This document shows, in pieces, positions 12,177 to 16,777 of a DNA stretch of 33,609 nt. A program made the translations under genes and the position numbers. Below the pieces are notes generated by a model that had not been told where the DNA came from, did not search any database, and saw nothing but the letters and a program-made list of their open reading frames with translations. Source of the stretch: Chthonomonadaceae bacterium (GTDB lineage: Bacteria; Armatimonadota; Chthonomonadetes; Chthonomonadales; Chthonomonadaceae); contig JANWZQ010000102.1 of NCBI GenBank assembly GCA_025054835.1, positions 1 through 33,609 on the forward strand, written 5' to 3'. Every line of letters starts with the position of its first letter. Position 1 is the stretch's first letter.

Positions 12177-14525
12177 TCACAGCACGCGGCTACCTTTCTG
12201 CGTTTCCGGCTCGTACAGGCATTCGACATCTTCCGTTTCCAGCAACTGCAGGAAAGCGTGCACCGCCCGGGGATCGAGTTGCTTGCCCGCAGCTTTCTTC
12301 AGGCGTGCGCGAGCCTCTGCCGGTGAGAGGCACCTGCGGTCCGGTTGCCCGGAACGCAGCGTATCGTACATCTCAACCACGGCGAAAAGTCGGGCGGACA
12401 ACGGGATCTCGTCCTCTTTTAACCCGCGCGGATATCCCTTTCCATCCCATCGCTCATGGTGACAGTAAGGGATATCGGCTGCTGCGTTCAGGCAGGCCAT
12501 GGGCGCCAGCAACGCATGGGCCCGGGCAGGATGCTGTTCCAGTGTCTCCTGCTCTTCTGGAGAGAGCGGCCGCGATCGGCGCAGGATAGTTTCAGTCAGA
12601 CCGAGCTTCCCGATATCGTGCAACATCGCCCCCCAGCGGATGTTGATCAACTCTTGCCCACCCAGCCCGATATGTCTGGCCAGACGTTCTGTGAGGTCGG
12701 CCAGCCGCTTGCTGCGCCCTCTGGATTTCCGATCGCGCAGGTCAATGAGATTGGCCCAATTCTGAATGGTCCTGTCGAGGGCATCGATCAGCGAGTTACG
12801 GAATTGCTCCCCGGTTTCGTAGGTGGTATCGACCTGCGCCGAGATCAGCATGTGGAGCATTTCCTCGTACCACTTCAGGTCACCGTCGTATGTCTCTGCC
12901 GAGTCGTCCAGATCCCGGGCGTGTGTGGCGCAGTTGCGCCCGCGTTGCTTGGAGAGGTACAGGGCTCTGTCGGCAGCGGCAATCAGGGCATCCGGCGTCT
13001 GATCGTAGTTGACCAGAGTGGCCACGCCGAAACTGCCGGTCACTGGCCGCAACGGCCATTCCGCCTGCTCTATCGCCGATCTCAATCGTTCTGCGGCCCG
13101 GAGCGCGCCCTCTGCGTCGGTGGTGGGCATCAACACGGCGAATTCCTCACCCCCGTAGCGGGCTACGAAGTCCGTCGATCGGGAGTTGGCCTGCAGCAGA
13201 TGAGCAACCTGCCGCAACACCCGGTCCCCTTCGGGATGGCCGAACGTATCGTTGTACTTTTTGAAGTGATCCACGTCCATCAATATCAACGACAGGGGCA
13301 TGCCGTGCCGTAGAAAACGGTGATACTCCTCTGTCAGACGCTCCTGGAACGTGCGGTGGTTGTAGATCCCGGTCAACCCGTCGACCGTAGCCAGCGCTTC
13401 CAGTCTCCGGTTCATCGCCTCCAGCTCGTGCTTCTGGAGCTCCATCGCCACGGCCTGCTCCTGGACCAGCAAAATCTGCTGTTCCAGTAACCGGTTGGCC
13501 TGTTCCATCTCTCTGTGGGCGGCTTCCAGCTCCTGCTCGTAGCGCTTGCGCTCGGTGATGTCCATCAGGGTTCCTACCAGACGGACCACCTGCCCCTGCG
13601 CGTCCGTAACCGGTTTGCCGACGGCATGCACCCATCGTAGCACACAGCCGTCACTGCCTACACGCCGCAGGTCGATGGCGTAACCGGCCTTTTCAGAAAC
13701 CGCCCGGTTCAGGCAGAGCCGCAATTGCTCCACGTCGTCCGGATGGAACAGGGTACATTGCGTCTCACAATCCGGCACCCCCTGCGCCGGGTCCACATCC
13801 AGGATCCGGAACAGCGCCTCGGACCAGTAGATCGCGCCGGTAGCAACGTCTATCTCCCAGTTACCAATCTGCGCCGTGTCCAGTACTTCCTGCAATCGCC
13901 GGGTGCCGAGTCGCTCACGCTCTACCCGCGCACCCAGTTCACGCTCACGTCGGTATAGACGAACGCGTTCCAGGGCCAGCGCGCATATCAGAGCTACATC
14001 TTGCAGGGTCTCCTGTACCGGGCCTTCACCGGGATCGCTCTTCGCGAAACCGAAACAGAGGGCTCCTATTGCTCGGTCCCGCAGCCGCATCGGCTGGATC
14101 CAGATGGAACGACACTCCGGGCTAAAAGGAGTATCAAACTCCGCGCAGACCCGGGAGTCTTGCGGGAGAGTATGCAGATAGCCAGCCGGGGATCCCTCTC
14201 GAACACACGTGGCCATTACATGATCTGCATCCAGCGAGACCTGTCGCCACCGCCCCGGCACTTCCGGGGTGCCTTCTGAGGCACCGATCGCCTGCAACCC
14301 GGTGCCTTCGTCATTGATCAACGCCACCAGACAGGCAGAAGCACCAATTCCTGGAGCGATCTGCTCCAGGAGGCATGAAACGACCTGTTGCTCGCTCTCG
14401 GCCGCAGCAATGCAGTGCAGAAAGCGCACAAGACCACCTGGATGCAGGGTCTTACAGGCAGGAAGGGGTACTGAGGAACTGTTGTCGAGGATATCACACC
14501 CGGCACCAGGCCGCGAAACCGTCAT
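12177..14525 (-). CDS. GAF-PAS-GGDEF-HD-GYP cyclic-di-GMP signalling protein
   Basis: The protein has 782 residues from the ATG at 14525, the in-frame start with a GGAGG upstream (12 nt, rather long). ATGs at 14546 and 14624 are alternatives and the frame is open to 14810. Domains in order: GAF (about 30-190), PAS with PAC (about 210-325, IGNWEIDVATGAIYWSEALF), coiled coil (325-380), GGDEF (380-530) and HD-GYP (575-775). The GGDEF signature is GGEEF (458-462), so cyclase activity is likely, and an RSTD I-site five residues upstream allows product inhibition. The HD-GYP part keeps HDIGK and HHERWDGKGYP, but the first histidine of the usual GHS motif is Arg604 (GRSKR) and the late VADxxDA aspartate is Glu. 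Opposed synthesis and hydrolysis, or one silent domain, are both possible. Confidence 0.92.
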   Translation of the reverse strand: MTVSRPGAGCDILDNSSSVPLPACKTLHPGGLVRFLHCIAAAESEQQVVSCLLEQIAPGIGASACLVALINDEGTGLQAIGASEGTPEVPGRWRQVSLDADHVMATCVREGSPAGYLHTLPQDSRVCAEFDTPFSPECRSIWIQPMRLRDRAIGALCFGFAKSDPGEGPVQETLQDVALICALALERVRLYRRERELGARVERERLGTRRLQEVLDTAQIGNWEIDVATGAIYWSEALFRILDVDPAQGVPDCETQCTLFHPDDVEQLRLCLNRAVSEKAGYAIDLRRVGSDGCVLRWVHAVGKPVTDAQGQVVRLVGTLMDITERKRYEQELEAAHREMEQANRLLEQQILLVQEQAVAMELQKHELEAMNRRLEALATVDGLTGIYNHRTFQERLTEEYHRFLRHGMPLSLILMDVDHFKKYNDTFGHPEGDRVLRQVAHLLQANSRSTDFVARYGGEEFAVLMPTTDAEGALRAAERLRSAIEQAEWPLRPVTGSFGVATLVNYDQTPDALIAAADRALYLSKQRGRNCATHARDLDDSAETYDGDLKWYEEMLHMLISAQVDTTYETGEQFRNSLIDALDRTIQNWANLIDLRDRKSRGRSKRLADLTERLARHIGLGGQELINIRWGAMLHDIGKLGLTETILRRSRPLSPEEQETLEQHPARAHALLAPMACLNAAADIPYCHHERWDGKGYPRGLKEDEIPLSARLFAVVEMYDTLRSGQPDRRCLSPAEARARLKKAAGKQLDPRAVHAFLQLLETEDVECLYEPETQKGSRVL

Positions 14526-14790
14526 GGGTACTCGATGCCTCCGCATTCTCTCCACACAGAGCCGGTCGACTGCGCGCACCACGGCGGGCAGGAAGAGTAG
14601 ACGATCATTATTATGGGAAAGCATTCTGCAAAATATCAGTCTCGCGTTAACAAAACTCGTAATTCTTCCTCCTGTGTGGAGGGAGACAGGGTCCGACACA
14701 ACAGGCGCAGGCAGGAAGCACGTTGCCCGTCGCGGAAATAGCTTTCTGATGCAACAATGTATCCCGAACAGGCACCGGAGAACCGAGGTC
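14526..14790. other. Divergent intergenic region between signalling gene and nusB
   Basis: This 265-bp stretch separates two divergent genes. The minus strand has CATAAT (14615-14610) as a possible -10 for the signalling gene, with a poor -35. It may be partly coding if the signalling protein starts at 14546 or 14624. An in-frame ATG for nusB also exists at 14749. No hairpin or RNA gene was recognised. Confidence 0.35.
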
Positions 14791-15852
14791 ATGATCAGTA
14801 CCCGTCGCATGGCCCGCGAATGGGCGCTGAAAATCCTGTATCAGATGGACGTGGGAAGGTGCTCCCTGCAGGAGGCTCTGGATCCTGCGCTGGAACGCCT
14901 GCGGATGGAGTTCGTGCAGCGCGGGTCGCGCACAGCCAGCGGTTCCATGGCAGAAGAGATCTGCCTGAACGCCATCACGATACACCTCGGTGATACGCTG
15001 CCAGATCTGCGCCTGCCCATGGAGCGTGTCCTGGAAATCGGGATCGAAAGGATCTTCGAGGAGGCGCCATACTGGCAGGAGGTCAAGCTGGAACGTGCGT
15101 TGAAAACGCGCTTCCCCGGCCTCATGCTGAACCCGCCCCGGCTGCTCACCCCGCTGCCTGAATCACGCCTGTTCCCTCCAATGCAGGAGACACTCGACGA
15201 ACTGGCAACGCATCTGGCACAGCTAACGGACGCGGAGCGCACACGTTATGCAGAATTCGTCTCCTATGCACGCACGGATCTGCCACGGCTTCTCTCTCCG
15301 GAAATGCGTCGGACCGTTCAGACGTTCATGAAACAGCTGGTAGCGGAACGCCCGATCACAGATGTGGCCGACTGGCTCCATCGGCGCCGCCGGGAGTTCC
15401 ACCGGGAACAGGCCCATCGATGGCGGAAAGTAGCCACCATGGTACAGAAGCAGACGGGGGACTGGTTGCGCACAGCAACCTTCACGCACAAACTGGTCAC
15501 CGGCGTGCACACGCATCAGCAGGAGATCGACGAGGCTATTGGCGCTCTGTCGGCCGGGTGGCGCCTGGAACGGCAGGTCGCTGTGGATCGCAATATCCTG
15601 CGTATGGCCGGGTACGAACTGCTCTTCCTGCCCGCGATCCCGGTCGCAGTCACAATCAATGAGGCTGTCGAGCTGGCCAAAAAGTACAGTACTGCCGAGT
15701 CCGGGCGATTCGTTAACGGGGTGCTGGGGGCGCTCGCCGCCCGCACCGGCAAAAAGCAGGACCTCGTGGCCGCACAGCACACGATCGAAGGAAATCCACA
15801 GGAGCATCTCGTGGAAATCGCTGCAGAACCGCTCCATTCTGCAACCGAATAG
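14791..15852 (+). CDS. nusB: Transcription antitermination factor NusB with a large internal insertion
   Basis: NusB with NusE binds boxA RNA and supports antitermination on rRNA operons. The ATG at 14791 follows GGAG by 10 nt and gives 353 residues; E. coli NusB has 139. The amino end is typical (RRMAREWALKILYQMDVG, residues 5-22), as is the carboxyl part (FTHKLVTGV at 231-239, DRNILRMAGYELLFLPAIP at 266-284, INEAVELAKKYSTAESGRFVNGVLGAL at 289-315). Between them, about residues 45-225 form an insertion of about 180 residues, charged and probably mostly helical, with no motif I recognise. No frameshift is needed, so it is one protein. It is followed by folD (55 bp) and xylA, likely co-transcribed. 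Confidence 0.88.
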   Translation: MISTRRMAREWALKILYQMDVGRCSLQEALDPALERLRMEFVQRGSRTASGSMAEEICLNAITIHLGDTLPDLRLPMERVLEIGIERIFEEAPYWQEVKLERALKTRFPGLMLNPPRLLTPLPESRLFPPMQETLDELATHLAQLTDAERTRYAEFVSYARTDLPRLLSPEMRRTVQTFMKQLVAERPITDVADWLHRRRREFHREQAHRWRKVATMVQKQTGDWLRTATFTHKLVTGVHTHQQEIDEAIGALSAGWRLERQVAVDRNILRMAGYELLFLPAIPVAVTINEAVELAKKYSTAESGRFVNGVLGALAARTGKKQDLVAAQHTIEGNPQEHLVEIAAEPLHSATE

Positions 15853-15907: not shown

Positions 15908-16777
15908 ATGACCACACATTCTGGAGCTGGCTTGCTGGATGGGGCAGCTATCGCGCGCGCCATCCGGACGGAGGTAGCGGAAGGAGTTCAACGCCTGAAA
16001 GCGACCGGACGCCCCGTGCCGCACCTCGCTGCGGTACTCATTGGCACCAATCCGGCATCCGAGACCTACATCGCTATGAAACAACGCGCCTGCGGCTGGG
16101 TCGGGATGGCTTCATCGGTGCACCGTCTGGGGGACAACGCCACGCAGGCCGAGGCCGAGGCACTGGTCGCACGCCTGAACGCCGACCCGGCGGTGACCGG
16201 CATTCTGGTGCAACACCCCCTCCCGAAGCACCTGCATGAGCCCGCGGTTCTGGATCAGGTCTCCGCGCACAAGGACGTGGACGGGATCAGCCGGGTGAGC
16301 CTCGGCGCACTGATCAACGGGGAGCCGGCATTCCCCTCCTGCACTCCCGCCGGGATCCTTGCCCTGCTCGACCGTTATAACCTCCCTATCGAGGGCAAAC
16401 GTGCTGTGGTGGTCGGGCGGAGCATCATTCTGGGCAAGCCCATTGCCCTGATGCTGCTCAACCGGCACGCCACGGTCACCATCTGTCATTCGCGTACCCC
16501 CGACCTCGCAACGGAGACCCGGCAGGCGGACATTCTGGTCGCGGCAGCGGGACGCCCGGAGCTGATCACCGGCGACATGATCAAGCCGGGTGCCGTGGTG
16601 ATTGACGCTGGCTACAACCGGGTGGAGGGGCGCACCGGTGACGTGGGCGATGTCCACTTTGAGTCCGCTGCCAGAGTGGCTGGATGGATCACGCCAGTCC
16701 CCGGAGGGGTAGGTCCCATGACCATCGCGATGCTTTTGAGAAATACGTTGTTTGCAGCAGAAGGCCGATTTCCATAG
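15908..16777 (+). CDS. folD: Bifunctional methylenetetrahydrofolate dehydrogenase/cyclohydrolase FolD
   Basis: FolD interconverts 5,10-methylene-THF, 5,10-methenyl-THF and 10-formyl-THF in the cytoplasm using NADP, supplying one-carbon units. The ATG at 15908 gives 289 residues, the normal length. Catalytic and binding motifs are present: [12 protein letters not shown] with the catalytic lysine, [15 protein letters not shown] with the folate-contacting aspartate, PSCTPAGIL, the NADP-binding [17 protein letters not shown], and [15 protein letters not shown] near the end. The ribosome site is weak, since AAGGA lies 13 nt or more away. nusB-folD adjacency is widespread in bacteria, where xseA often follows; here xylA follows instead at a 16-bp gap. 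Confidence 0.97.

Follow-up and report, generated by a model that had tools for sequence, protein, structure and literature searches.

Transcription of ribosomal RNA centres on NusB, a small and widely conserved protein that assists RNA polymerase in this task. In a 33,609-nucleotide stretch of the genome of Chthonomonadaceae bacterium (contig JANWZQ010000102.1; the whole of this stretch is called the window here), a gene of this family carries a long block of extra sequence between the regions encoding helices 2 and 3. The locus raises two questions: whether the product is still a NusB, and what a block of this size might be doing inside it. The features on which the answer rests are collected in Table 1.

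Table 1. Coordinates of nusB, its parts and its downstream neighbour, numbered from the first base of the window
Feature	Coordinates	Strand	Basis
nusB, 353 aa, insertion-bearing	14791..15852	+	reading frame, PF01029, TIGR01951
N-terminal NusB segment with helices 1 and 2 (residues 1-41)	14791..14913	+	aligns with NusB that lacks the insertion (family f2; phylum)
Insertion separating helices 2 and 3 (residues 42-227)	14914..15471	+	alignment; conserved in Chthonomonadaceae
Conserved stretch 1, residues 42-56 (VQRGSRTASGSMAEE)	14914..14958	+	mean pairwise identity 0.49 in family
Conserved stretch 2, residues 91-105 (EAPYWQE...)	15061..15105	+	mean pairwise identity 0.42
C-terminal NusB segment from helix 3 on (residues 228-319)	15472..15747	+	PF01029, TIGR01951, PDB sequence and fold matches
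C-terminal tail, residues 320-353	15748..15849	+	weakly acidic in the window protein, acidic across most of the family
folD (THF dehydrogenase/cyclohydrolase), directly downstream of nusB	15908..16777	+	Pfam

The reading frame runs uninterrupted from ATG to stop (14791-15849, plus strand; 353 residues), and its product matches PF01029 over residues 229-315 (E 7.6e-32; 110.9 bits against a cut-off of 23.1); scored as a whole, the protein reaches 122.3 bits with the nusB model TIGR01951 (curated cut-off 88.35). Sequence matches in the PDB are to NusB chains only. NusB chains were likewise the best matches when the predicted NusB body was searched against PDB folds (E about 3e-3; TM-score by target 0.60-0.64), a search that was run with the AlphaFold2 model of the whole protein and from which the NusB matches alone were used, the low-confidence part being ignored. 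The complete helical fold of NusB is there, with helices 1-2 ahead of the insertion and the helices from 3 on behind it, and both halves align with insertion-free NusB; the N-terminal residues 1-41, which begin RRMAREWALKILYQMDVG, align with helices 1-2 of insertion-free relatives. Like standard NusB as defined by PF01029 and TIGR01951, the protein has both ends, the nusB-folD gene order and the core motifs RxxAREWAL, VDRNILR, NEAVELAKKYS and FVNGVLG, and it is encoded in single copy, the window gene being the sole NusB-family match in a genome that is 97% complete. RsmB was considered and rejected as an identity, given that the protein ends 34 residues past the NusB domain and that RsmB models score far under their cut-off.

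What the protein does not share with an ordinary NusB is size (353 versus about 140-155 residues) and a short loop between helices 2 and 3, where the alignment places 186 residues in the window protein and 1-4 in ordinary relatives. Size is a customary rather than a curated criterion, and the protein stays a member of the NusB family as a variant: it is the genuine single NusB of Chthonomonadaceae bacterium. The initial annotation, which described two standard NusB ends in one frame, a length about 2.5 times the normal and an insertion at about residues 45-225, is thereby borne out, the limits moving slightly to 42-227 once they were set by alignment with insertion-free NusB from f2, another family of the same order, and from the phylum.

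Two features set this protein apart from standard NusB, namely the block of approximately 185 residues that separates helices 2 and 3 and, in most Chthonomonadaceae, an acidic C-terminal tail. The tail shows a recurrent (I/V)(D/E)LP(D/E)... pattern in most members of the family (L003-L010, L012, L031), mostly with a net charge of about -7 to -21; the charge is -6 in the window protein, and the tail is missing in L011. Extra residues ahead of helix 3 may also occur in cyanobacterial NusB, which would be about 210 aa long with roughly 65-75 additional residues, fewer than here; a putative cyanobacterial sequence scores as NusB, with its match starting near residue 101.

Within the insertion, conservation is uneven. 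The two conserved stretches at residues 42-56, with the family pattern VQRGSRxASGSxxE, and 91-105 nearly match the NusB body in conservation, whereas in the rest of the insertion the mean pairwise identity in the family falls to 0.19-0.27, the middle of the insertion standing at 0.19. The sequence had been described as charged, probably helical and free of recognisable motifs. Its charge proved moderate (30% D/E/K/R, net +3). The helical character is supported by the periodicity of the alignment-averaged hydrophobicity, which exceeds that of shuffled columns with a z of 4.1 in the Chthonomonadaceae (f1) and of 7.3 in a further family of the order, f3, while the same alignment test revealed no strand periodicity. 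Structure prediction, which had been proposed as a check, gave a divided answer: AlphaFold2, given two sequences, modelled the insertion as all-helical, yet with low confidence over it whether the whole protein or the insertion alone was modelled (pLDDT mostly <50), the NusB parts being predicted better. Helix 3 is continuous with the last insertion helix in this low-confidence region of the model.

As for motifs, searches of Pfam, PHROGs and the PDB with insertions of family members or their profile returned chance-level matches only, the best of them to a spore coat protein (E 0.012), and we found nothing in the literature on an insertion in NusB. The lack of a recognised motif was therefore rightly noted as far as these known families are concerned, even though the two stretches above are conserved within the family.

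Comparison across relatives, another of the checks proposed at the outset, places the insertion within one family. A homologous block of 169-196 residues is present in 16/16 Chthonomonadaceae genomes with an identified nusB, spanning 11 genera and including that of G002, a 3.4-Mb genome in a single contig; the family member without a nusB match, G016, is 64% complete. Among the matches listed, NusB of f2 and of the rest of the phylum lacks the insertion, full-profile matches spanning about 360-465 bases; outside the order this absence covers the listed genomes and 30 low-scoring ones that were checked, three of which (L083-L085) are partial or weak. A profile of the family insertion, run against 251 genomes of the phylum, produced no convincing match besides nusB of the Chthonomonadaceae. 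Partial matches in two genomes of family f6 (E 6.5e-4 and 0.0096) lie in long open frames and were taken as chance. Among the genomes covered, the insertion is restricted to this clade. Two nusB loci contain one stop codon each inside the match (TAA in L011, TGA in L014), and the insertion of L014 is split over two frames, suggesting a frameshift or a sequencing error.

The NusB proteins of f3 offer a parallel. All 11 carry additional residues at the very site of the Chthonomonadaceae insertion, in a segment that is likewise predicted to be helical and is under purifying selection, but that is shorter (124-158 residues) and has no detectable sequence similarity to the former (HHalign probability 1.9%). 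A tree of the NusB body (133 columns) supports the Chthonomonadaceae as a single group and leaves the branching among f1, f2 and f3 unresolved, so that the two insertions may have one origin or two.

Absence from most of the phylum and the lack of a known homologue are what might be expected of selfish or neutral baggage, be it an intein, an intron, the remnant of a mobile element or an assembly error. Several observations speak against such an origin. In the same close pairs of genomes with unsaturated synonymous sites, dN/dS is 0.10-0.26 for the insertion and 0.06-0.14 for the NusB body; these Nei-Gojobori estimates are rough, several dS values being >1. Judged by these ratios, purifying selection acts on the insertion as protein, if more loosely than on the body. 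The G+C content of insertion and body is the same (0.61), the insertion profile matches the nusB gene alone in its own genome, with no second copy, and matches in phage and plasmid collections are confined to the NusB part. An intein was rejected because Pfam gave no intein match and the right-hand end has no HN/C-S-T junction (DWLR-TATF). The possibilities that the block might occur in one genome only, without selection on it, or stem from misassembly, both raised by the initial annotation, are countered by the 16 genomes, one of them a single contig, and by purifying selection. Baggage of any kind is the least credible of the explanations weighed here, with hardly any probability left to it.

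The surroundings of NusB appear ordinary. In a motif scan, most of the f1, f2 and f3 loci retained the order nusB-folD. On the other side of the window gene lies a divergently oriented gene for a GAF-PAS-GGDEF-HD protein (diguanylate cyclase plus HD domain; 12177-14810, minus strand), which in its longest possible frame would share 20 bases with the beginning of nusB but probably starts further inside. The gene for S10 (NusE) is ordinary in the 8/8 genomes checked, and boxA-like elements, picked by eye against the known consensus rather than with a tested model, occur shortly past the promoter in rRNA leaders of f1, f2 and f3 (for example, GCTCTTTGACAATC in G002 and GATCTTTGAAAACC in G026), some copies in f1 being degenerate (G011; the second copy of G002). 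Families with and without the insertion therefore both possess the core partners of NusB. Because NusB body, gene order, S10 and boxA-like leaders are all ordinary, core NusB function is probably kept. The NusB body would still pair with S10 on boxA of the nascent rRNA, as its conserved residues, the normal S10 and the boxA-like leaders lead us to infer.

A replacement of SuhB, or of another missing bridging factor, by the new domain would be one way of linking the insertion to this complex, since in E. coli NusB/E requires SuhB to enter the complex when NusA is present (PMC6614801). Inositol-phosphatase genes of the SuhB family, however, occur in genomes with and without the insertion, which does not tell which of them, if any, acts as SuhB, and we regard such a replacement as highly improbable.

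The rRNA leaders suggest a further possibility. The boxA-like element lies within the predicted leader-trailer helix of pre-16S processing and can pair with the trailer (L039, L041, L042, L043, L044, L048). In E. coli, the leader-trailer helix begins at boxC, 18-19 nt downstream, and NusB has been proposed to keep boxA tethered up to the emergence of the trailer (PMC10250234). NusB could be released when boxA pairs with the trailer. Both the position of the element in the predicted helix and the proposed tethering are in keeping with an insertion that contacts RNA, extending the boxA surface to the leader-trailer helix and acting in rRNA processing. But the arrangement is common to f1, f2 and f3 and is therefore independent of the insertion, f2 combining the same RNA arrangement with an insertion-free NusB; insertions of the Chthonomonadaceae carry almost no net charge (-4 to +3), and known RNA-binding families give no match. 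We consider RNA contact unlikely, albeit less so than a substitute for SuhB. A conserved GTCGCGTGTGACG-like motif after boxA, entertained as a target of the new domain, turned out to be part of the leader-trailer helix. In L041, L042 and L044, 16S and 23S seem unlinked, a protein gene beginning after the 16S trailer; in L044 it encodes MutS domain I (PF01624), and the start in L041 is similar.

We favour the reading of a genuine NusB bearing a projecting helical module that docks in the antitermination/processing complex, to which we give about even weight for and against. In place of the helix 2-helix 3 loop there would be an orphan domain of approximately 185 residues, structured and predicted to be all-helical. 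This domain would probably project from the body on lengthened helices 2 and 3 that carry further helices, and would probably, at a guess that extends to its partner, offer the rRNA antitermination/processing complex an accessory surface for docking. The proposal of the initial annotation, that a block next to the RNA- and NusE-binding body may alter antitermination complexes or attract a new partner, is compatible with these data. Yet a surface dedicated to binding should be more tightly conserved than the middle of the insertion, with its identity of 0.19, and neither a partner nor a co-varying gene nor a genomic neighbour gives a hint of the function. The insertions of f1 and f3 are not recognisably related, and a shared partner is therefore not indicated.

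The main rival is a role in stability or dimerisation, with the insertion as a structural add-on recruiting no new partner, its sequence drifting because the fold alone matters. Some NusB proteins are dimeric in crystals, and the weakly conserved middle, combined with a nearly constant length and a preserved helical pattern, is what such an add-on should look like, as is the f3 insertion, dissimilar in sequence at the same site. On the other hand, the stretches at 42-56 and 91-105 are nearly as conserved as the body, suggesting specific contacts, and other families of the phylum manage without the domain. An add-on of this sort seems to us rather unlikely, though clearly less so than contact with RNA.

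What is new here is a conserved, selected orphan block of about 185 residues in the NusB of one bacterial family. The presence of f1, f2 and f3 within one order provides a natural comparison of NusB with and without an insertion, and the NusB of the single-contig relative G002 would make the question of the domain testable. A selected orphan domain in NusB implies a part of the rRNA antitermination/processing complex that is not seen in E. coli. More tentatively, as a possibility that we think somewhat doubtful, a hot-spot loop of NusB may have gained lineage-specific helical domains, perhaps twice in one order, and may thereby have recruited a new component to the rRNA transcription complex of Armatimonadota.
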